Virus record (IMG/VR): IMGVR_UViG_3300035187_001672
Coordinates: 1 to 31,449 of that record
Length of the DNA: 31,449 nt
From: a virus
Reading direction: 5' to 3' (one strand)
This document shows positions 3,267 through 31,449 of this stretch, piece after piece. Position 1 is the stretch's first letter. Each line of letters starts with the position of its first letter. Position numbers and translations under genes: made by a program. The notes under the pieces were generated by a model, which did no database searches, was not told where the DNA came from, and saw only the letters and a list, made by a program, of their open reading frames with translations.

Positions 3267-3611
3267 TCAACGGAACTCCGAAGCGAACTCTTCCTCGTCG
3301 GCCGTCTCGCGCTTACCGCCCAGCAGGCGGATGTCGCTGACGTTCAGGATGACCTTGGATCGCTTCTGGCCATCCTTCTCCCAGACCTGCTGGTCCAGTT
3401 CGCCTTCGACCAGCACCGGCGTGCCACGCTGGAGGTACTCCACCACCGCGCCGCCCCGCCAGTATTCGCAGTCCATGAACAGAACCTTGCCCTTCTTAAA
3501 GGGCGAGTTCACCGCGATGGAGAACTTCGCAACGTCACGCTCACCAGCCTGGCGAACCTCAACGTCGTTGGTCAGGTTGCCGATCAGAATCGAACGGTTG
3601 TAACTAGCCAT
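3267..3611 (-). CDS. ssb: Single-stranded DNA-binding protein
   Basis: The 114-residue product begins MASYNRSILIGNLTNDVEVR, the characteristic N-terminus of bacterial and phage SSB. It continues with an OB-fold pattern including VAKFSIAVNSPFKKGK, the aromatic strand LFMDCEYWRGG, and VLVEGELDQQVWEKDGQKRS. The C-terminus ends in acidic DEEEFASEFR, a weak version of the acidic protein-docking tip. Length is short compared with the usual 150-180 residues because the flexible linker is nearly absent, as is common in phage SSBs. The ATG at 3611 is chosen because it has an AAGGAGG site 9 nt upstream; a TTG two codons earlier is less likely. It overlaps the ERF gene by 8 nt and should protect single strands for ERF annealing. 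Confidence 0.93.
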   Translation of the reverse strand: MASYNRSILIGNLTNDVEVRQAGERDVAKFSIAVNSPFKKGKVLFMDCEYWRGGAVVEYLQRGTPVLVEGELDQQVWEKDGQKRSKVILNVSDIRLLGGKRETADEEEFASEFR

Positions 3612-4263
3612 TTGCAACTACCTCCTTGGTGTCCCACTTCTTGGAAAACTCCGCCTTGCAGCGGTCAAACACATCACGCCCAATCGCCTTCTCGCGGAGT
3701 CGCAACTCAACGAGCTTCATCACCGTCACGGCCTCTGCCCGGTCGGCGGCATTGGCGATGTCCTTCTTCCAGCCCTGCTCAAGCTGCAGGTTCTGGACTG
3801 CCTTGGTCGGCTCGGGCCGGCTGGCCGGGCGATCCGGCACGCGGTTGTCCTCGCCATCGTCATCCGGCTCGCCACTGAAGCCGCCGCACAGCGCCATCAG
3901 CAGCGTCCGCTTGGCATAAGTGCAGGCGCTGCCGAACGACTGCATGTCGCCCTTCGTCATCAGCAACGGAGCGATGCCCGTGATGAACTCGCCGCTCTTG
4001 TGGCGAAGGGTGCCGACCATGACCCACTGGCCATTCGCCAGCAGGCCGGGCCGAAAGTCCGGCAGGCTGATGCCGTTCTTGGTCAGCGGTCCACGCAGCG
4101 AATCGCAGCATGTCGCATATGACGAGAACCTGCTTTTGAAGTGCGGGTTCGCGGCATCCAATGCAACGTGCTGGTACGCGGCTTGGGCAGCTGCGAGGGC
4201 CGCAGTCAGCTGGCCCGTGCTGGGGGACGATGACGGCCCCAAGATGCTGTTGTTGTCTGTCAT
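3604..4263 (-). CDS. erf: ERF-family single-strand annealing recombinase
   Basis: The 219-residue protein shows the ERF superfamily core. NPHFKSRFSSYATCCDSLRG (39-58) is the typical N-P-x-F-K-S-x-(F/Y)-A motif, a Gly-rich middle follows (GISLPDFRPG), then TLRHKSGEFITG and GDMQSFGSACTYAKRTLLMA (~104-123), which is the family's most conserved helix. An acidic DDDGED stretch closes the core. ERF proteins anneal complementary single strands in phage homologous recombination and genome circularisation. The ATG at 4263 overlaps the exonuclease stop as ATGA, so the exonuclease and annealase are translated as a coupled pair, as expected for a Red-like system. SSB follows directly. Confidence 0.92.
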   Translation of the reverse strand: MTDNNSILGPSSSPSTGQLTAALAAAQAAYQHVALDAANPHFKSRFSSYATCCDSLRGPLTKNGISLPDFRPGLLANGQWVMVGTLRHKSGEFITGIAPLLMTKGDMQSFGSACTYAKRTLLMALCGGFSGEPDDDGEDNRVPDRPASRPEPTKAVQNLQLEQGWKKDIANAADRAEAVTVMKLVELRLREKAIGRDVFDRCKAEFSKKWDTKEVVANG

Positions 4264-5114
4264 ACGATCACCACCTCCTCCTCCTGGCGCTTCGCCCAGG
4301 CGGGGAACTGAAGCTCCGTGATCTCTCCAGAGTCAGCGGACTCATAGACCCCCGTCTCCCTGCGAAGACGAACCTCCTCCATCACGCGGGTCATTCGCAG
4401 ACCCGCCTCCTCCACAATCTCGGTCGGCAGATAGAACACATGGACACCGTACGGGGCCATGGTCTGGACAAAGACGAACGGCATCCGGAAGTGATCCATG
4501 CCCAGAGCCTTGGCGCCCTGCACATAGAGCCACTCCTGCTCCGCGTATCCGAAGTCAATCGCGCTGCGGTAGACCTTGTCCCACGTTGACGAGGTGGTCT
4601 TCAGATCCCACCACAGAGCCGGCGTGCAGCCGTCCGGTCGCACCTTGCAGCGGTGGCCGTTGAGTTCAAAGAACGCACTGACCTGCGTCTCGTTCGTCTG
4701 CTCAATCAGCGCCTTGGCCGCGGGGTTCTCAAGGAGATGGGTCAGCATCATCTCCAGCTGCCAGCCTTCCTCTTGGTTGCAATCGACCAGACCCTTGCGG
4801 TCGGCCTCTTCCTTCCAGGCGTCGTAGGCCTTGCCCCGGCGGGAGCCGTTGCTGGCCAGCACCTCGGCCGGCGGAATGGCCAGAACGTCAGTCAACTTTT
4901 TCCCCTCGCAGACGGCAGTGACGATGGTGTCGAACTTGCTGCCAGTGCGAGTGCCGGCGTTCCCCCCAAACAGGGAGTAGCCCATGTCCATCCACCGCTG
5001 AGCTTCGCCGCCGTACTTGGCGACGGAGTGCAGGTACGACCTGCCAAGGAAATCATTCTGCGAGTGGTAGTCGGCATTGCTCATGCCGATCACCTTGCAT
5101 GGGAGCCTGTCCAT
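4260..5114 (-). CDS. PD-(D/E)XK exonuclease (phage recombination exonuclease)
   Basis: From the ATG at 5114, which has a perfect GGAGGT site, the product is 284 residues. Residues 13-25 (NADYHSQNDFLGR) resemble the opening of RecB/Cas4-like phage nucleases of the YqaJ or DUF3799 type. NAGTRTGSKFD (52-62) occupies the family's G-x-x-x-(H/D) position. VRPDG (158-162) and WWDLKTT (168-174) give D161 and D170-x-K172, the metal-binding PD-(D/E)XK residues. Q193/Y197 (AEQEWLYVQG) match the downstream QxxxY motif of the RecB nuclease family. It is translationally coupled to ERF by an ATGA overlap, so it most likely resects duplex ends to feed annealing. An upstream in-frame start at 5207 is possible but lacks a ribosome site. 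Confidence 0.88.
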   Translation of the reverse strand: MDRLPCKVIGMSNADYHSQNDFLGRSYLHSVAKYGGEAQRWMDMGYSLFGGNAGTRTGSKFDTIVTAVCEGKKLTDVLAIPPAEVLASNGSRRGKAYDAWKEEADRKGLVDCNQEEGWQLEMMLTHLLENPAAKALIEQTNETQVSAFFELNGHRCKVRPDGCTPALWWDLKTTSSTWDKVYRSAIDFGYAEQEWLYVQGAKALGMDHFRMPFVFVQTMAPYGVHVFYLPTEIVEEAGLRMTRVMEEVRLRRETGVYESADSGEITELQFPAWAKRQEEEVVIV

Positions 5115-5118
5115 CAGT

Positions 5119-5271
5119 TCACCTCCGTTGTGAAGAAGCCGCCTCCGTGCGGCGCACCGAATCCCTCCAACGCCGGAACGCAACAAGCGCCCGGCCAAAC
5201 TGTCCAAGAGCGAGGAACACCATGGCCGTGGCCGTGGCGTGAAAGAAAAGCAGCAAGACCAGAATGGTCAT
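5119..5271 (-). CDS. Small single-pass membrane protein, ~50 aa (start uncertain)
   Basis: From the ATG at 5271 the product is 50 residues: a hydrophobic helix (MTILVLLLFFHATATAMVFL) and a basic amphipathic tail (RALVAFRRWRDSVRR). An upstream ATG at 5355 would give 78 residues, but its first codons are the tRNA-like segment at 5329-5353, so I prefer the shorter form. The stop (TGA at 5119-5121) overlaps the GGAGGT ribosome site of the exonuclease gene, which fits a tight operon. No strong ribosome site precedes either start. One membrane span with a positive C-terminus would place the tail in the cytoplasm. Function is unknown; a superinfection-exclusion or holin-like role cannot be judged from sequence. 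Confidence 0.5.
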   Translation of the reverse strand: MTILVLLLFFHATATAMVFLALGQFGRALVAFRRWRDSVRRTEAASSQRR

Positions 5272-5328
5272 CGCCGCTGCGCCTAGAATTCGGGAGAGCC
5301 ACCCGCTCGGGGGGCCGCTTCGACCGAT

Positions 5329-5353
5329 CCTATCCAATTGAGCTAGGGGTGCC
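5329..5353 (-). other. tRNA 5'-half copy (Arg-type), candidate attP core
   Basis: The minus strand reads GCACCCC, then TAGCTCAATTGGATAG, then GATC. This is the acceptor strand, position 8-9 TA, D-stem and D-loop of a bacterial tRNA, closest in my memory to tRNA-Arg. The following bases do not make an anticodon arm, T-arm or matching acceptor strand, so no complete tRNA is present. A tRNA fragment about 100 bp upstream of an integrase ATG is the classic appearance of a phage attachment site. Unusually, it is the 5' half of the tRNA rather than the 3' half. Confidence 0.62.
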
Positions 5354-5365
5354 ATGTGGTTCGCC

Positions 5366-5393
5366 AGTATAGCAGGGGCCTTGATAGATCCAA
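5366..5393 (-). promoter_or_regulatory. Extended -10 promoter firing into the early operon
   Basis: On the minus strand, TGCTATACT (extended -10, hexamer at 5371-5366) lies 16 bp downstream of TTGGAT (5393-5388), a 3-of-6 match to a -35 box. The predicted start is near 5358-5360, just before the tRNA-like segment. It would drive the leftward genes from the small membrane protein through the exonuclease, ERF and SSB. It would also supply a promoter to a tRNA rebuilt by integration at the adjacent candidate attP. Called by eye against the sigma-70 consensus. Confidence 0.5.
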
Positions 5394-5397
5394 AAGT

Positions 5398-5415
5398 GGG
5401 GGTAGTCTCACCCCC
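5398..5415. promoter_or_regulatory. Inverted repeat, possible operator
   Basis: GGGGGT (5398-5403), six-base loop AGTCTC, ACCCCC (5410-5415): a perfect 6-bp inverted repeat. It lies a few bases upstream of the -35 of the leftward promoter and about 34 bp before the integrase ATG, so a protein bound here could affect both directions. It lacks a U-tract, so a terminator is unlikely. Could also be an integrase arm site. Confidence 0.35.
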
Positions 5416-5448: not shown

Positions 5449-6264
5449 ATGACTCTCAGAGAGTTCGCGGAGGCTTACGCCCTCCGGGTAGGGGCTAGCC
5501 CAGGCTACAGGGAGCAACTCGTTGTGCTGGCCAAGCGCCTCCCTTGGGGGGTGGCAGACTTGACCGTCGATAGCATCGATGCTTACCTGACGCAGGCCCT
5601 CGGTCATCTTGCCGCCTCCACGGTTCATAACCATCGCCGGATGCTCAGCACCCTGCGAAAGGCCGCCCTCCAAGACGGCCTGTTGGTGGACGATTGTACA
5701 CGGCCTATCCGGCGTGTCAAGCACTCTTTGCCGCTGGTCCGCGCTTGGACCCATGACGAGATGCGGCACCTGCTTTCGGTAGCCGCGGAGATGCCGGGAA
5801 ACACCCTTCACTGCCCGCTGAAAGTTCTGCTGCCGGCGTGGATTCTGGTCGGCTACTCCAGCGGCTTGCGTCTGGGCGACATGCTGGCCATCACCCATGA
5901 CTCCCTGAGAGGAGATAGGCTGGCTCTGATTCTGCGCAAGACCCGGCAACCGCATGTGATCGTCCTTGATCAGCAGGCCCTAGAAGCAATCCGTTCGCTT
6001 CCCCGGCGAGGGCCGAAAATCTTCGGCGGACTCGTCGGAAGGAGCCGGATCATAGTGGCCATGCGCGCGCTCGTCAAACGAGCCGGCCTCACCGGATCGG
6101 GCAAATACCTGCGTAGAGCGAGTGCGACTTACGCCCAAATGGCTGGGATCGACCCCAGTGGACACTTAGGTCACCTGACCCCGGGCATGAAGCGGCACTA
6201 CCTAGATCCGGTCATTCTCTCGGATCTGAAGAGGGCCGTGCCTAGCCTGGCAGGAATGCGCTAG
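5449..6264 (+). CDS. int: Tyrosine-family integrase
   Basis: From the ATG at 5449 the product is 271 residues. The N-terminal SAM-like core-binding domain occupies ~1-95 (MTLREFAEAYALRVG, then STVHNHRRMLSTLRKAALQD). The catalytic domain follows: R141 in SGLRLGD, K164 in LRKTRQ, R222 in GKYLRRASATYA, H242 in GHLTPGMK, and nucleophile Y251 in KRHYLDP. The usual box II HxxR is KxxR here. It is the only plus-strand gene in the window and probably mediates integration at the tRNA-like attP just upstream. A GTG at 5356 would add 31 residues but would read across the promoter and inverted repeat, so I prefer the ATG, although it has no clear ribosome site. Its TAG shares CTAG with the stop of the convergent 1216-aa gene. 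Confidence 0.93.
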   Translation: MTLREFAEAYALRVGASPGYREQLVVLAKRLPWGVADLTVDSIDAYLTQALGHLAASTVHNHRRMLSTLRKAALQDGLLVDDCTRPIRRVKHSLPLVRAWTHDEMRHLLSVAAEMPGNTLHCPLKVLLPAWILVGYSSGLRLGDMLAITHDSLRGDRLALILRKTRQPHVIVLDQQALEAIRSLPRRGPKIFGGLVGRSRIIVAMRALVKRAGLTGSGKYLRRASATYAQMAGIDPSGHLGHLTPGMKRHYLDPVILSDLKRAVPSLAGMR

Positions 6265-21526: not shown

Positions 21527-23935
21527 TTATGTTGAGTACGCCACAGAAAGCGTCAAGGAGACAGTGCCCGCGGACGGCATGAAGGATGGCGAAAAACTAG
21601 TGAGAGCGGTGTTGGATACGCCGTACACAAGAGACACAAAAGCATCGCCGTCATAAACGGCGCAAGCCGTTGGTCGTTGCGTAGTAAACCCGGAAGCACC
21701 CGCAATTGTTCCCGAGCCAGAATTGACGCCAGCCGCAAACGGCAGCCCAGTCACTCTCATCTGTCCGCTGCCTCCGCTGAAATTGCTTGCTTGGATGGAG
21801 CAATCCACAAAGACCATGCGCCCAATTTTGGTATACCGCGCACTGAACGCAACGAGCGTGTAGGAAGGGGCAGCGCTTGCAGCCGAGAACGCAGGCGTCC
21901 ACGTACCTTGCTCATAGTCCGACAGCGTATTGGCCGCGGCGGTGTCCGTGCCAAAGAGAATGCCAGTGGACGCGCGAATCGCTCCAGACACATCCAGCCT
22001 CATGGCGGGGCTGGTCGTACCAAGCCCCAAGTTACCGGCGAGGTATGAGTTCGCCGTGGCGTCTGCGTAGAGTGCGTAGTTGTTGGCGCCTGCCGGTGGG
22101 CTGACAATGCGCACGCCGTAGTTTTCGGCGGCATTGGCGGCGGTGACATATACGCCCGTGTTGGCTCCGCCCGCACCATTGGCCTGCCCCATGAGCGCGT
22201 AGTTGACCGACCCCGCTCCTCCATTGCTAATAGCGTTGATGGCTTGGCCGCCGGCCGCCACTACCTCCAGACGCGAGGCAGGGCTTGGCGTTCCAATGCC
22301 GACATTGCCGGCCGAAGTGATGCGCATCCCGGCTGCTCCGGTGGCCCACGGCCCGATAGCCAAGGCGCCAGTGTCAATTGTTCCTGCGGAGAATATAAGG
22401 GCGCTGTCGCCAGGCTGAACAAGGCCATTGTTAGCGCCAGAAGAACTGTCTGGACGCAGCCAAGACCACGCGCCAGGCCCGCGAACCATCAGCCCGTCCG
22501 TGCCCTGCGCAGCAGTGGTGACCTCTAGCCTCGCAGCGGGCGCAGTTGTGCCAATGCCGACATTGCCGGCCGAAGTGATGCGCATCCGCTCAGTATTGCC
22601 GACCGTAAACAGCGTGCAGGCGTCCGCATGTGTCTCCTCGTTCATGATCCAAAAGGAGCCGGACTTGTACTTTACAAGGTTTACGTACGTGGTTCCGGTG
22701 CCAGCCACGTTGCTAGTGGCCAATCGGAAGACGGCGCCGCTGAACGCCCCAGAGGCATCCGTGTTCACGCAGTCCACGTAGCGCAGTCCAGCCGCGAGGG
22801 TGCTCCCGAAAGCCGCGCCTGCAGATGTGGTGATCGTAGTAAAAGCACCAGTCGAAGCCGCGGTCGCGCCGATGGCTGTGCCGTTGATTGATCCGCCGGT
22901 TACAGCCACGGACGCCGCAGACTGCGTGGCCAGCGTCCCAAGACCTAGCGTCGTTCGCTGCGCCGCGGCATCGGCGCCAGCGATTAGCGCGCGTCCGGCG
23001 GAGGTGCAGGTGATCTCCTCTACCACGCCGGCGCCCACTCCGGACCTTCCCAGCAGGCGGTCGGTAGCAGAGACGTTCTGGAGCTTGGCGTAGGTGACGG
23101 CGCTGTTCGCTATGTCCGCAGTGATCACGGCGCCGGCATTGATGGTCCACGTGGCACCACTTGCGGAGACTGTGATGTCGCCCTTGTTGCCGTCCGATGG
23201 GGCGCGGGCATCGGAGAGACGCGCATCATCACCCCGGCAGGCCGTTGTAGACGTTGTCCCGTACGACACACTGACCGTGCCGCTGGCTACGCCAAGCCCC
23301 GTCCCAACGATCAGGCCGCCCAAGGTGGTTGTGGTAGCCTGGGGGAGTGTGTACCCGCTGGATGCCGAAATAATCCCGCTCGCATCGATTGAGATGCCCG
23401 AGCCAATGCGCACGCCACCCAGCGTGCTGGCACTTGCCTGCGGGAGCGAGTAGCCGGCTGGGCTACTGCCGGCGGTGATGCGACCCTTACTGTCCACGGT
23501 GACGCTTGTGTAGGTTCCGGCCGTCACTCCAGTGGCTGAGAGAGTCGGGCTGGGGTAGGTGCCTGTGAGATCGCCGCCGGCCGCCCCGGAGGGCGCGCGA
23601 GAGTCGGACAGCCGGGAATCCGTGGCGACCACAACCGCCACCCCGCCCACAGTGAGAGAACCGGAGACATTCCCCCCGGTCAGGCCCACATAGCGCACAT
23701 CAGCCGCAGCCTGCGTAAGGGCGCCAATATCCGCCGGGGACAGAGCGTCAGACCCGCCAATAGCGTGGGTGGACTTGTGGGCGGCCACTACAGCGCCGGA
23801 AATCGCGGACACGCCGCCCGCCGCCGTGCGGTAGTACAGCTTGCCGTCGCCTTGGTTAATCGCCACCTCCCCGTCTTCCAGCGAAGCGGGGGCGGCGCCG
23901 GGGGTGTTACTGCGCTTGAGGCGGGGAGGGGGCAT
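21527..23935 (-). CDS. Tail fibre protein, 802 aa
   Basis: Residues 1-45 carry the fibre-attachment module [20 protein letters not shown] then [12 protein letters not shown]. The shaft (45-~670) is a Ser/Gly/Ala/Thr-rich trimeric-fibre repeat region with [27 protein letters not shown], and two copies of [12 protein letters not shown] (near 450 and 536). Residues ~676-802 form a receptor-binding tip of common type ([40 protein letters not shown]). The ATG at 23935 has AGGA, 5-nt spacer, inside the end of the 114-aa gene. It probably recognises the host surface. The [10 protein letters not shown] block (residues ~248-279) recurs in the 99-aa gene. I see no enzyme site such as an endosialidase or intramolecular chaperone. 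Confidence 0.85.
22293..22587 (-). repeat. 37-bp perfect direct repeat within the fibre gene
   Basis: An identical 37-bp block occurs at 22293-22329 and 22551-22587, 258 bp (86 codons) apart and in frame. It encodes the [11 protein letters not shown] shaft segment in each copy. Perfect identity suggests recent duplication or ongoing recombination in the fibre shaft. Confidence 0.85.
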
Positions 23936-24251
23936 GAGCGTCCTGCAAGGGGCCTATAGGGCTATTGTCCACCCAAGTGACAGTCGCCTCGTCTAAGACC
24001 CAGCCATCGCCGGGGCATGGCGGAATGAAGGCATCTAGCGCCTCGTCGTAGCGGAACCCGCTGCCCGCGTAGTTTCCGCGAAATGGCCTGCCCTGCGGAT
24101 GCTGGTTCCCTTGGGTCCAGTAGCTCGTCCGCAGACAGCGTTGCCCGCGCACCTCCGCGTAGACCGCCTCCCAGTCTCCCTCACTCTCGTCGCGTCCGAC
24201 GATCACCTCGGTGACGATGTTGTCATCGTTCACAAATGCGTAGTGCGCCAT
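23907..24251 (-). CDS. Conserved phage protein of marine-virus type, 114 aa
   Basis: From the ATG at 24251 (GAGGA site, 6-nt spacer) the product begins [20 protein letters not shown] and continues with [31 protein letters not shown] and [20 protein letters not shown] recall this MAHYAF..NNVVTEVIVG ... RGNYAG.GF.YD...DAFI.P.P...W.L arrangement from proteins of cyanophage- and pelagiphage-like viruses, usually near structural genes, with no assigned function. The first start in frame is a TTG at 24263 overlapping the previous TGA; the ATG is better placed. It may be a small fibre- or decoration-associated protein. Confidence 0.72.
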
Positions 24252-24259
24252 CTGGTTCC

Positions 24260-25126
24260 TCAATTGAATGTCACGGTGCCCGTGCCGGCAGTGATCGTTA
24301 CGACGCTATCCCCGGCAGAGCTAGTCGTTGACGAGGTCAGGCCCGCGCTGACTGTAATTTGCATAGACGAGGCGAACCGCAAAACTACGACCCCAGAGCC
24401 TCCACCTCCACCTCCACCTCCACCTCCGCCACCGCCACCGCCACCGCCGCCCGTGGACGCAGACCCCGCAGTGCCAACGCCACTACCGACTCGTCCGTTT
24501 CCGCCGCCGCCGGTGCCACCAAGCCCCTGCGACTTGTTTCCAGTGCCGCCGCCACCACCACCGGCATAGGTGACGCTCGTCCCTGTAATGCTGGAGGCAA
24601 GCCCAGCGCCGCCATTGCCAGCCTTCGCGCTGGTGCCAGCCGCACCTGCTGCGCCAGCACCGCCGCCGCCGCCGCCGAGTCTGTAGGTCGCGCCGTCAGT
24701 TGATCCGGCGCCGCCGCCGAACCCCTGTGTTCCCGCTAGTTGCGCCGAGCCGCCCGATCCGTTAGTCGATGTCACGGTGCCGCCGCCACCGCCTGAGCCT
24801 CCGTCAACGCCAGCGAGAGCCGTAGCCGATGTCGCACCGCCGCCGCCACCGCCAATCGCCACAACCGACAGAGCAATGGAAGGCGAGCCGTTGACGCCTC
24901 GCACGGCCACGCTGCCCGCACCCCCGGCACCGACTTGAACCGCGTAAGCGACTCCAAGCGTGACGGCCACGGACGTTTCCACAACGCCGCCCCCACCACC
25001 GCCGCCGCCCTGCTCGCCGTTGCCGCCGCCGCCGCCGCCGACCACCAGCACCCTGACGGTGCGGCTAATCTGCGCCCGCAGCCGCGATGCACTAGCGAGA
25101 GATGTGGAAGCGTTGCGGAGCGTCAC
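24260..25126 (-). CDS. Polyglycine-rich adhesin / fibre-tip protein, 288 aa
   Basis: GTG at 25126 overlaps the previous stop as TAGTG. Residues ~28-50 (VLVVGGGGGG then EQGGGGGGGG) open a domain dominated by runs of Gly with Ala/Ser/Thr strands between, the pattern of Gly-rich domains whose polyglycine-II helices pack into a sandwich in phage tip adhesins (as in T4-like gp38). One run is 18 glycines. After SGVVVLRFASSMQITVSAGL a Ser/Thr strand tail ends TITAGTGTVTFN. It lies in the fibre cassette and probably binds a host receptor directly or caps a fibre. The bulk carries no enzyme motif. Confidence 0.75.
   Translation of the reverse strand: MTLRNASTSLASASRLRAQISRTVRVLVVGGGGGGNGEQGGGGGGGGVVETSVAVTLGVAYAVQVGAGGAGSVAVRGVNGSPSIALSVVAIGGGGGGATSATALAGVDGGSGGGGGTVTSTNGSGGSAQLAGTQGFGGGAGSTDGATYRLGGGGGGAGAAGAAGTSAKAGNGGAGLASSITGTSVTYAGGGGGGTGNKSQGLGGTGGGGNGRVGSGVGTAGSASTGGGGGGGGGGGGGGGGGGSGVVVLRFASSMQITVSAGLTSSTTSSAGDSVVTITAGTGTVTFN
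24399..24452 (-). repeat. 54-bp GGN trinucleotide tract encoding 18 glycines
   Basis: The minus strand has 18 consecutive glycine codons, first GGC and GGT-type units, then a run of GGT and GGA repeats (GGTGGAGGTGGA pattern). Slippage by whole triplets would change loop length without breaking the frame. Confidence 0.85.
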
Positions 25127-25455
25127 TAGCTGATCTCCACCCCGAAGGCACTGAAGGCTACGCTGGCAGACCCTGCGTACACGCTCACAACGTCAGTCGC
25201 CGCCAGTGTCACGCCAAGCGTGAGAGTCACTGTGTCACTGGCCGGGAGCGGTGCGTCGTAAACCAGATACTGCGAGGTGGCAATCGACGCCCCAGCGGGC
25301 CGCACCGCGATCCGATAGGTGGTCGCCGTCGCTGCGGTGTTGCACACGGTGATTGTCGAAACAATGGCCTGCGTGGCAGACGGTGCCACATAGAGCGAGA
25401 CTAGCGTGGTGGCGGCTGGGTTTGATTGGCCCAGTACCTTGTGTGTCTGCGGCAC
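25126..25455 (-). CDS. Fibre-cassette beta protein, 109 aa
   Basis: GTG at 25455 with a strong GGGAGG site (7-nt spacer). Begins MPQTHKVLGQSNPAATTLVS and continues as alternating hydrophobic/Thr strands (SATQAIVSTITVCNTAATAT, RIAVRPAGASIATSQYLVYD, LGVTLAATDVVSVYAGSASV). I recall this KVLGQ..PAATTL ... VVSTLVVCN ... YRVAVRPAG ... LAATDVVSVYAG layout from small beta-sandwich proteins beside phage fibre genes. The role is likely structural or as an accessory in receptor binding; no catalytic residues are evident. It ends by overlapping the adhesin start (TAGTG). Confidence 0.7.
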   Translation of the reverse strand: MPQTHKVLGQSNPAATTLVSLYVAPSATQAIVSTITVCNTAATATTYRIAVRPAGASIATSQYLVYDAPLPASDTVTLTLGVTLAATDVVSVYAGSASVAFSAFGVEIS

Positions 25456-25458
25456 GTC

Positions 25459-25758
25459 TTAGCCTCCCATGAGAAGAAACGGGTGGAATATCTGGTTGCG
25501 AACATCGTTCGACAGATCGGCCTCTGTGACGGCACCGGCATTGATGACCCACGTTGCTCCGCTGCCGCTGACCGTGATGTCGCCTTTATTGCCGTCCGAC
25601 ACTCCGCCGCCGCCGCCCGTGGGCAGCTGCGTCACCACACCTGAGCTATTGCGGTAGTAGAGTTTGCCGTCGCCTTCATTAATGGCGATCTGGCCGCTCA
25701 CCAACGAGGACGGGACGCTGCCCGCCGTTGTCGATCTCAGTATCCGGACGGTAGCCAA
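25459..25758 (-). CDS. Short fibre-module protein, 99 aa
   Basis: A TTG start abuts the previous stop (TAG then TTG) and gives [20 protein letters not shown], then [16 protein letters not shown], the same attachment module as the 431-aa and 802-aa fibres. Residues 55-86 ([20 protein letters not shown]) match the 802-aa fibre shaft closely. The C-terminus ends [13 protein letters not shown], with no receptor-binding tip. It could be a stand-alone collar piece that decorates the tail, or a truncated fibre left after a duplication. TTG is supported because translation begins exactly where the homologous proteins begin. Confidence 0.65.
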
Positions 25759-27054
25759 CTAGAACGTCCCCCCATCGATATCAGAGCTAGGCGCCAGAAA
25801 GTCGGTGCCGGCCACTGCCACGGAATAGGCAGAGCCGTTTCCTTTGAGGAGTCCATTGACGGCCGATGTAAGTCCGGTGCCGCCATAGCCCACGGCAATC
25901 GTTGTCGCCTGCCACACCCCAGTGCCGATGTCGCCCAACGTGGTAATAGAGGTCTGGCCGGCGTAGTTCCCCGGCACGCCGCCGCCGGCACCGGAGAACT
26001 GATTGAACGAGACGCTGGTCGTTCCGACCGTGATCGTCCCGGTGGTGGAAAGCACCCACGCCGTTCCGCCGCCTAATGTGCCCTGGTCAACGTAGACGAA
26101 CGACCCGGTAGTCAGCGTGGTGCTGGAGTTAGCGTCCGCAGAACGCGCCCACGCCCCGGCCGCGGCAACGTACAGACCGTTCTGGCTGGCAGTGGTCTGA
26201 TTCTTCACCAACACCCGGTCGCCGGCCAGCACCGACACGCCGTCGATGGTCTGCGTGCCGGACAGCGTGATGTTCGCCGTGGTCGCAACCTTGACTGACG
26301 CTTTGAACTCCAGGCCAATCGAAGCGTTGTCCACGTACGCCTTCGTCGCAGCATCTTGGGCGTTGGTTGGATTGACTAGATTGGTGAGTCCGAACCCGCC
26401 CATGTTGTAGTTGCCCGTCGCCGTCGCAAGCGTGTTCAGCGGGTTGGTCTGGACCTGCGTGTCGAAGCCCGTGATGTCGCCCGGCACAATGGCCAGGATT
26501 GACTTGGCCTGCGTGGGGGTCAGGTCTTCGGGCGCCCCAGTGCCCGTCGATACGCGCCCCTTGATCGTCGCCGTGCTGACCGTCGCCAGCTTGGCATTGG
26601 TCACCGTGCCGGACGGGATGGTCACCGAGATGGAAGTGGTGCCAGTGCCGGTCGCGTCTCCCGAGATGGAGATGCTCTGGTTGGTGGTCAGGTAGTTGAG
26701 CGACTTCACAAAGGCCGTGGTCGCGACCGCGGTTGAGGTGTCGCCTGGCGATTGGGTTGTGGCGGTAGCGGAGCCAAGAGCTACGGTGCTAGTGAACGTG
26801 ACGCCGCCGGCGAACGTGTATGTGCCGAATGCGGAGTGCGTGCCAGTGAGCGCCAGAAACGAACCCGGCCCCGAGATCGGCAGGACGGTGGTCGCCGTCC
26901 CACCAGCCCCACCTGTGCCCAAGCCATAGAACAGCGTGCCGGCCGTAGTCGCACTGGCATTAGACTTGTGCGCCTCGGCAAACGCGATCTCTGCATTGGC
27001 CAGCGAGCTTGGTGCCGTTCCGGCTGTGGATCGTTTGACGCGAATTGTCGCCAT
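25759..27054 (-). CDS. Tail fibre protein, 431 aa
   Basis: Overlaps the 118-aa gene as TAATG. N-terminal module IRVKRSTAGTAPSSLANAEI (3-22), then a fibre shaft with strands (QSPGDTSTAVATTAFVKSLN; GDATGTGTTSISVTIPSGTV; NYNMGGFGLTNLVNPTNAQD) and a block (GLEFKASVKVATTANITLSG; TQTIDGVSVLAGDRVLVKNQ; NGLYVAAAGAWARSADANSS) seen in many phage fibres. It ends LKGNGSAYSVAVAGTDFLAP-SSDIDGGTF. The tip is unlike that of the 802-aa fibre and may connect to another partner protein. Likely role: elongated host-recognition or linker fibre. Confidence 0.8.
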   Translation of the reverse strand: MATIRVKRSTAGTAPSSLANAEIAFAEAHKSNASATTAGTLFYGLGTGGAGGTATTVLPISGPGSFLALTGTHSAFGTYTFAGGVTFTSTVALGSATATTQSPGDTSTAVATTAFVKSLNYLTTNQSISISGDATGTGTTSISVTIPSGTVTNAKLATVSTATIKGRVSTGTGAPEDLTPTQAKSILAIVPGDITGFDTQVQTNPLNTLATATGNYNMGGFGLTNLVNPTNAQDAATKAYVDNASIGLEFKASVKVATTANITLSGTQTIDGVSVLAGDRVLVKNQTTASQNGLYVAAAGAWARSADANSSTTLTTGSFVYVDQGTLGGGTAWVLSTTGTITVGTTSVSFNQFSGAGGGVPGNYAGQTSITTLGDIGTGVWQATTIAVGYGGTGLTSAVNGLLKGNGSAYSVAVAGTDFLAPSSDIDGGTF

Positions 27055-27410
27055 TAGAAATTACCCCCGTCCAAAAGTTGGTTCTCCGAATAATTGCGCC
27101 ACTTGCCGTCCGACCAGCGCAGCACATCCCCAGTCTTTATGTCAGTCATCTCCACATCGCTGGAGGAGGGAAGAGAGAACCGCAGGGAGTTCAGCAGGTA
27201 CGGCAGTTCCCTCCATCGCGTCACCCCGTCCCCGATCTTGATCGCTCCCGAGCCGAACGCCGGATCCGAGTAGCTGAACGTGTCCAGCGACACCTCAGTG
27301 CCAGATGGCACATCCCTCTCATAGCCAATTTCGCCCGCCGCCAGAATCGGGTTAACGGCCAGCCATTCAGCGGCCGTGCCACGGCGGAACTGAACTAGCT
27401 GATAGCTCAA
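27054..27410 (-). CDS. Mtd-N-like small fibre-module protein, 118 aa
   Basis: TTG start overlaps the previous TGA (TTGA). The product (MSYQLVQFRRGTAAEWLAVN, PILAAGEIGYERDV, IKIGDGVTRWRELPYL) matches the N-terminal domain shared by major-tropism-determinant-like and other phage fibres: a Q-F-R-R-G-T start, an L-x-x-G-E-I/G-x-E turn and an I-K-I-G-D-G-x-x-x-W segment. It ends SENQLLDGGNF, like the 431-aa fibre's DIDGGTF. Without the C-type-lectin variable domain, it may form a small homotrimeric connector. There is no reverse transcriptase or template repeat in the window. Confidence 0.72.
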   Translation of the reverse strand: MSYQLVQFRRGTAAEWLAVNPILAAGEIGYERDVPSGTEVSLDTFSYSDPAFGSGAIKIGDGVTRWRELPYLLNSLRFSLPSSSDVEMTDIKTGDVLRWSDGKWRNYSENQLLDGGNF

Positions 27411-29939: not shown

Positions 29940-30257
29940 TCACTTGGCCTTTCGGGCCTCCAAGTCAGCCACTTTCCGCTCCAAGAGCGCCACTTTCTCC
30001 GCGAGAATCGCGTTCTTCTGGGGCTTGTGTTCCCAGAATCCGTACTCCTTCCAGGCCGGGAACTCGTTCACCCCGGGGTCGGTGGTGTGGTGGACGCTGT
30101 GCTTCTCGTTCCCGCCGTAGCCCGGGGCAATGGCCCAGAGCGTGAGCGTGCGGGACGAGGCCCGCGTCACCATGGCCGGCACAGCCTCGGCTCCCTCATG
30201 GGCACGGAACAGTACCCAATCCCCAACTTCCGCAGACGGCATCACAAAATCGCTCAT
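29940..30257 (-). CDS. Small protein between terminase and portal, 105 aa
   Basis: Overlaps the terminase stop as ATGA. The first ~60 residues are a small beta domain (MPSAEVGDWVLFRAHEGAEA; PAMVTRASSRTLTLWAIAPG) that may be SH3-like. The last ~28 residues are a coiled coil (AILAEKVALLERKVADLEAR). No family is recognised. Position suggests a packaging or portal-assembly factor. It is in the right place for a small terminase partner but lacks a helix-turn-helix, so I do not call it TerS. Confidence 0.68.
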   Translation of the reverse strand: MSDFVMPSAEVGDWVLFRAHEGAEAVPAMVTRASSRTLTLWAIAPGYGGNEKHSVHHTTDPGVNEFPAWKEYGFWEHKPQKNAILAEKVALLERKVADLEARKAK

Positions 30258-31449
30258 TGTCTTCGACTCCCCATTGGACCCAGGACGATGCAGGAGTCTT
30301 CGGACCCCTGCTGACGGCGGCGCTTGTCCGCCAGGTACTTAACCCACCACGGATCCGGCCCGTAGGTTTTGGGCGGTGCGTGGTATTTCGGTTCATAGGC
30401 ACAGAGATACTCCACCGACTGGATGGCGTGGACCTCACCCCGGCTCTGGGGTTCGTCGGTGACATAGACCTGACCATTGACGGTGGTTGTCTTTTTGCGG
30501 TAGCGGCGAATCTCGCGCATGAGATTCGGGCACGCCCCCTCCAGGAACTTGAGCTTGGTGGTTCCATCTCCACGGATGTGAAGCATCTGCCGGACGAGAG
30601 CCGTGCGGGCCGGGATGTCATCCGAGCCGGGTATGAACCCGAACCCGCTCATCTGGGCCTTGATGTTCTTTTTGCGTAGCTCTTCCGAATACAGTTCATG
30701 CGGCAACCGGCCCGAGCCGAGATCGCGCAGCATGCCGCCGTGCATGTCGATGATGAACGTGCGGAACGACTGGCCCTCCGCCTTCTGGGCAAACTGCTCG
30801 CCAAAGATCAGCGCATTGGCCTGACGGATGTACAGTTCGTCGTAGATCAGCAGGAACTTTTCGTCCGGGGGAACCGCGCCGAATACGCACGCGAGGACTG
30901 TATGGCCAGGGTCGATCGCCACATACCGCGTCCATTCAGCGGGCACCACGCCACCGGGTAGATCCTCGCGCCGCAGTACATGCACCGCAGGATTGAAGGA
31001 CGGGTACATGAGCGTCGATTCGGTAGTGAACTCGCCCTCCGCCCGCATGCGAAGCTCGTCCATTCCCAAGGCCGACCAGCGTTCGATGTTTTTCTTTTTC
31101 TCTTCCTGGTCGATGTGGGCGTTATCCAAGAACCGCAGCGTGAACTTCTTAATGATCGGATTTGTCTGCCCCTCTTCCTCCGCCTTGTCCGCACGTTCAC
31201 ACAGCCCCAGCAGCGCATCGTTCTTACTGTGCGGCATGGCCGACCAGACGAACCGCCCCTTGCGGTCGGCAAGGCGAGCCTGCATCTCGCCAACCCACCT
31301 TTCATTATTAATATCCTCATCAATGTGAACTAAGTCTGCCTGAAAGCCCTGCGGCGGTTCGCCCTCTGACGAGAAGCAGTTAATCGTCCAGCCATTTGTT
31401 AGCTCAGCCTTGTTCAGGTAGCCGGCGTTCTTAAGCACCCAACTCATCT
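30254..31449 (-). CDS. terL: Terminase large subunit (partial, lacks N-terminus)
   Basis: The frame is open to the window edge, so the N-terminal Walker A is not seen; the first ATG (31447) is internal. The visible part has DLVHIDEDINNERWVGEMQA, the Walker B/catalytic acid region of the ATPase, then the nuclease domain: YVAIDPGHTVLACVFGAVPP (first acid), FIIDMHGGMLRDLGSGRLPH (second acid) and SRGEVHAIQSVEYLCAYEPK near the C-terminus. This is the standard two-domain packaging motor of tailed phages. It starts the right-hand packaging block and overlaps the next gene as ATGA. Confidence 0.92.
   Translation of the reverse strand, partial: MSWVLKNAGYLNKAELTNGWTINCFSSEGEPPQGFQADLVHIDEDINNERWVGEMQARLADRKGRFVWSAMPHSKNDALLGLCERADKAEEEGQTNPIIKKFTLRFLDNAHIDQEEKKKNIERWSALGMDELRMRAEGEFTTESTLMYPSFNPAVHVLRREDLPGGVVPAEWTRYVAIDPGHTVLACVFGAVPPDEKFLLIYDELYIRQANALIFGEQFAQKAEGQSFRTFIIDMHGGMLRDLGSGRLPHELYSEELRKKNIKAQMSGFGFIPGSDDIPARTALVRQMLHIRGDGTTKLKFLEGACPNLMREIRRYRKKTTTVNGQVYVTDEPQSRGEVHAIQSVEYLCAYEPKYHAPPKTYGPDPWWVKYLADKRRRQQGSEDSCIVLGPMGSRRQ

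Follow-up and report, generated by a model that had tools for sequence, protein, structure and literature searches.

Transfer RNA (tRNA) genes are among the commonest sites at which phages integrate, and the integrating elements usually carry the 3′ end of the gene, which leaves the host promoter in charge. What, then, is the 5′ end of an arginine tRNA doing beside a phage integrase gene? This arrangement occurs in IMG/VR virus record IMGVR_UViG_3300035187_001672, here analysed over 31,449 bases (the window; GC content 62.6%), about half of a genome of ~59–62 kb. We consider it probable that the block is a phage attachment site (attP), at which a tyrosine integrase inserts the phage into the front of a host tRNA-Arg(ACG) gene, with crossover most likely in the D-arm and the tRNA rebuilt behind a phage promoter. 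A sequence-only reading had already proposed an attP, and that proposal is now supported by the tie between the core and one integrase family, a sharp block with diverged flanks, its start at the first nucleotide of the tRNA, tRNA types that change from one part of the integrase tree to another, and a 3′ fragment in remote relatives.

5330..5352, minus strand: attP core, nucleotides 1–23 of tRNA-Arg(ACG), exact match; nucleotides 1–18 (5352–5335) are the block of the whole group with this core, ArgA.
5449..6264, plus strand: tyrosine integrase of 271 amino acids, core-binding and catalytic domains only, by profile match.

The minus strand carries GCACCCCTAGCTCAATTGGATAG at 5352–5330, with 0 mismatches over 23 nucleotides; the sequence is unique in the window at up to 3 mismatches and found 0 matches in 100 shuffles, the chance expectation being zero. 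It reproduces nucleotides 1–23 of tRNA-Arg(ACG) exactly, as they stand at the start of two intact genes, each in a further viral contig (L014 and L015); none of the genes with this start was confirmed in a host chromosome. An earlier description of the block as the 5′ half of an Arg-type tRNA about 100 bp from the integrase start codon holds for the 5′ end and for the distance, which is 97 bp to the ATG at 5449, but not for ‘half’, since the block comprises nucleotides 1–23 in the window and 1–18 in the family, the first quarter of the tRNA. The remaining tRNA parts are missing, as had been noticed: ARAGORN called no tRNA in the 31,449-base window, and a complete tRNA of the same isotype is thus absent from this part, about half, of the genome. 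When the phage sequence up to tRNA nucleotide 18 was joined in silico to the tRNA body of L014 or L015, the recombined junction restored an intact tRNA, called by ARAGORN as tRNA-Arg(ACG) from the first base of the block; no tRNA was called on the phage alone or on the opposite junction.

The integrase gene, which is divergent from the core, matches PHROG 1 (9.7e-17), and its profile aligns to residues 100–344 of lambda Int, so that the arm-binding domain is absent. The catalytic residues R141, K164, R222, H242 and Y251 are retained, and another residue stands where lambda has H308. Neither the integrase nor the portal protein of the window found a match among cultured phages.

The presence of a 5′ tRNA end beside the integrase is a trait of the family, as judged from its sequences. 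When 2.9 million viral contigs were scanned with the 22-mer core, 21 were returned, 19 of which hold it before, and divergent from, a relative of the window integrase, the remaining two (L014 and L015) containing full tRNAs. Relatives at 51–53% identity carry a second tRNA 5′ end, GGGCA[A/G]CTAGCTCAGTTG, at the same place; a scan for it returned 39 contigs with the core in front of integrase relatives, and no full tRNA was found in the 35 of these that were checked. A profile scan with 20 diverse integrases yielded 76 loci, and the att regions with a tRNA 5′ end came to 68, including the window (26 ArgA, 39 GGGCA and 3 of a third end, ArgB, GCGCCCGT[A/G]GCTCAATTG). The core stands 45–106 bp before the integrase gene in all relatives whose integrase start is present. 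The eight most distant loci that hold the integrase start (27–32% identity) have the 3′ part of a tRNA there, with the anticodon arm, T-arm and 3′ end.

L154 and L156–L162, up to 330 bp before the integrase gene: tRNA 3′ part in remote relatives, anticodon CAT or CCC.

Judged by these sequences, one integrase family has changed which tRNA end it uses. In the integrase tree, a supported branch separates the 5′-fragment from the 3′-fragment integrases, and the core types require 7 changes, compared with 29 in shuffles. Because a single remote outgroup did not fix the root (approximately unbiased test, AU, p 0.36), a change in the direction from 3′ to 5′ rests only on the 3′ fragment being the general rule. 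The 117.8-kb record IMGVR_UViG_3300049595_001870 (L167–L172) consists of two related phages placed head to tail, each of ~59 kb; their att types differ (GGGCA and ArgB), and they share a nearly identical stretch of ~4 kb. Its two att modules were considered as tandem prophages and rejected, there being no tRNA, and the record is most likely an assembly join. The portal proteins of both genomes are 80–82% identical to that of the window, and they match the protein at 30254–31447 of the window, probably a terminase, at 76%. Between the two genomes, the integrase reading frames have 60% identity. Structural genes are thus closer than integrases across att types, and the integration module therefore diversifies faster than the rest.

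The limits of the block were drawn from 41 non-redundant att regions, which also served for the promoter statistics. Nucleotides 1–18 of the tRNA reach 2 bits of information save at a few positions, namely A/G at nucleotide 6 (GGGCA), a single T/C at nucleotide 16 (ArgA) and A/G at nucleotide 9 (two ArgB rows). Conservation falls at once before nucleotide 1 and, in the two large groups, at nucleotides 19–20, with TAG at nucleotides 21–23 mostly retained. Coding constraint was ruled out as the cause of this identity, since third codon positions scarcely vary in the core (0/6 and 1/6) and are variable downstream (26/38 and 38/38). A start exactly at nucleotide 1 is not needed for strand exchange alone and therefore points to selection for a correct tRNA; as identity ends at nucleotide 18, the crossover should fall within nucleotides 1–18. 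Within the D-arm, nucleotides 12–18 may form a 7-bp overlap, to judge by the symmetry CTA-N2-TCAATTG-N2-TAG.

5335..5341, minus strand: proposed 7-bp overlap TCAATTG, tRNA nucleotides 12–18, D-arm, placed by symmetry and by the right-hand limit of identity.
5346–5342 and 5334–5330, minus strand: putative half-sites of this overlap, CTA-N2 and N2-TAG respectively, placed by symmetry.

A tRNA-like pairing, CACCCC...GGGGTG, occurs downstream in some close relatives and is missing in others; it was attributed to coding sequence.

In the proposed model the rebuilt tRNA would be read from a phage promoter.

5366..5393, minus strand: promoter-like TTGGAT-16-TATACT with TGC before the -10 box, from sequence and from -10 enrichment in relatives.
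5119..5355, minus strand: small hydrophobic protein gene, first in the leftward operon, its 5′ end running through the attP core.

The extended -10 promoter is present as it had been described, with TGC-TATACT at 5374–5366 and TTGGAT at 5393–5388, separated by 16 nucleotides; a strict consensus promoter scan of the window did not list it. The -10 box ends 14 nucleotides ahead of tRNA nucleotide 1, and boxes 14–19 nucleotides ahead of it are strongly enriched. When the best box starting at -22 to -13 was scored in each of the 41 regions, the mean was 4.08, whereas none of 300 shuffles gave a mean above 0.80; scores above 3 were reached by 14/14 long-spacer ArgA and 9/16 long-spacer GGGCA representatives, but by only 2/11 short-spacer ones. 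Such strong enrichment at a suitable distance agrees with the earlier suggestion that this promoter is placed to drive the rebuilt tRNA, and makes a phage promoter for that tRNA likely in the group of the window and only possible in the short-spacer group. Short-spacer relatives such as L136, L140 and L141 have ~46 nucleotides between the integrase gene and tRNA nucleotide 1, with a conserved TGTCAAG instead of a -10 box.

Three things are inferred, namely that integration occurs, where exactly the crossover falls and that the rebuilt tRNA is transcribed, and we envisage them as follows. Phage and host would share tRNA nucleotides 1–18 (1–23 in the window), the target tRNA genes in the host starting GCACCCCTAGCTCAATTG or GGGCARCTAGCTCAGTTG, and strand exchange would take place inside the shared block, most likely in the D-arm overlap between the two half-sites. 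The junction on the integrase side would then consist of phage promoter, tRNA front and host tRNA body, an intact tRNA being restored and read from the promoter at 5366–5393, and at the other junction the recombination operon of the phage would come to lie behind the promoter and 5′ fragment of the host tRNA. A further proposal, which we hold tentatively and at less than even weight, is a swap of promoters, whereby the promoter of the operon in the free phage passes to the host tRNA on integration and the operon, having lost its own promoter and upstream start codon, falls under the host tRNA promoter.

Several points weigh against this account. Neither an integrated copy nor a chromosomal host tRNA nor attL/attR was found in the scans of genomes and viral contigs; the window is a fragment and would not show both ends of a prophage; no tRNA type has been identified behind the GGGCA core; and only 2/11 short-spacer relatives (46–55 nucleotides) have a -10 box. 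The best-surviving alternative, although we regard it as unlikely, accepts a working attP but supposes that integration is rare and lysogeny never stable, with the promoter serving the phage operon and transcription of the tRNA incidental. T7-like cyanophages provide a precedent, having an integrase and a tRNA attP with rare integration and no stable lysogens (PMC8776855); the promoter does stand before a phage operon, the core-bearing contigs of the family all resemble free phage genomes, and no prophage of this family was found in 84,980 species genomes. That genome scan, however, looked for only two short patterns, and its coverage of the host group may be poor, while exact conservation from tRNA nucleotide 1 exceeds what strand exchange needs and implies selection for a working rebuilt tRNA.

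Far less probable is that the block is no attP at all and instead heads the recombination operon as a leader derived from a tRNA, perhaps as a 5′ RNA element seen by tRNA-processing enzymes. Its position between the promoter and the gene that opens the operon would suit such a role, but the block is tied to the integrase lineage and switches tRNA identity with it, a classical 3′ attP fragment occupies the same place in remote relatives, and the missing 3′ acceptor strand means that no acceptor stem could form in the free phage. That the block is the remnant of a decayed phage tRNA gene or a chance match is scarcely credible and is already contradicted by the conservation pattern, for even though the remote relative L014 has a whole tRNA-Arg there in phage-like DNA, the same end nucleotide in 41 diverged regions with a near-invariant interior is not expected of decay, and the chance expectation is nil.

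Several other candidates were set aside. L014 (9515–10524) has a whole tRNA-Arg(ACG), in phage-like DNA, at a distance of 87 bp from a remote integrase relative (33%); it was rejected as a natural attL/attR because the far side of the tRNA is phage-like too (with repressor-like helix-turn-helix and CsrA-like proteins), and it is perhaps a phage carrying an entire tRNA at its att region. L015 holds its tRNA within a phage whose sequence, as far as it was read, shows no related integrase, and the hits to Roseobacter phage CRP-9 and phage J1 are full phage tRNA-Arg genes with other anticodons. The genome scan returned two remote integrases in Verrucomicrobia, neither of them near a tRNA; Verrucomicrobiota were rejected as hosts, the Arg core being missing from 289 genomes and the GGGCA core from 96.

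Compared with known systems, the proposed attP works as do those of other tRNA integrases, but at the opposite end of the tRNA and at a subsite outside those described. It resembles the 3′-fragment elements (Reiter 1989; Williams 2002; Islander, PMC4383910) in its tyrosine integrase, in an attP beside the integrase gene that copies part of a tRNA and in rebuilding that tRNA upon integration, and differs from them in using the 5′ end, in a D-arm crossover and in a promoter that the phage would supply. The expectation that most elements carry the 3′ part is met by the Islander collection, in which 3,760 islands have a 3′ and 159 a 5′ tRNA fragment (3,919 in total; PMC4383910). Use of 5′ fragments is thus known but rare, and those 159 islands share the tRNA end used here; the crossover subsites that Islander lists are the anticodon loop, the T loop and the junction of the T and acceptor stems (PMC4383910), none of which is reached by the shared block of nucleotides 1–18 (1–23 in the group of the window). 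A D-arm crossover is not among them and, together with a trait shared by a whole clade of phage integrases, sets the present family apart from the 5′ islands, as judged by these listed subsites.

The closest parallel in mechanism comes from archaea, where pTN3-like integrases use a tRNA 5′ half and the rebuilt tRNA is read from the integrase promoter, an arrangement seldom met in bacteria (PMC8371274). As in pTN3 (PMC5495485, PMC8371274), a 5′ part is used here and an element promoter next to the integrase would read the rebuilt tRNA. The pTN3 site, on an archaeal plasmid or virus, is 41 bp long and extends to the anticodon; it falls within the integrase gene, so that integration splits that gene (PMC5495485). 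The present site, by contrast, has 18–23 bp, stands ahead of the integrase gene at the distance given above and leaves it whole. Islands and prophages in dusA also substitute their own sequence for the 5′ end of the gene they enter and place a putative promoter in front of it, but that target is a protein gene (PMC4482086). In mycobacteriophages with tRNA-dependent lysogeny, too, a short attP/attB core falls in a tRNA gene, but their integration does not rebuild that tRNA, and a whole one comes with the phage (PMC10865867), whereas the in-silico junction obtained here does restore it; it is to the mycobacteriophage type that the remote relative L014 may be nearer.

Of the genes around the site, those of the leftward operon behind the promoter comprise, besides the small gene, a RecE-like exonuclease, Erf annealase, single-strand DNA-binding protein and helicase.

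4260..5114, minus strand: RecE-like exonuclease (exonuclease VIII, DUF3799).
3604..4263, minus strand: Erf-like single-strand annealing protein.
3267..3617, minus strand: single-strand DNA-binding protein.

The small hydrophobic protein has the motif LxLGQ(F/L)xxA, and its gene spans the core in most relatives; with its ATG only 10 nucleotides past the -10 box, it may give an mRNA with almost no leader. Between the integrase gene and the promoter, a hairpin, GGGGGTGAGACTACCCCC, followed by ACTTTT (5398–5415), is kept in close relatives and could insulate the promoter or form part of the integrase leader. Elsewhere, at 21527–27410 on the minus strand, several adjacent genes start with a similar domain (MAxxRxKRSxxxGxxPxSLxxGExAxN...) and are probably repeated tail-protein units.

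If the proposed attP is correct, the D-arm crossover clade would add a fourth tRNA subsite to those in use, and a single integrase family would offer a natural series of site changes, from 3′ to 5′ fragment and from tRNA to tRNA. Searches that expect 3′ fragments would miss such att sites, and small integrases with sites of ~18 bp may be of use in targeted insertion. For the host, expression of a tRNA would come to depend on a viral promoter; were the swap of promoters also true, the state of integration itself would set the expression of the recombination operon, and the arginine tRNA supply of the lysogen would hang on that viral promoter.
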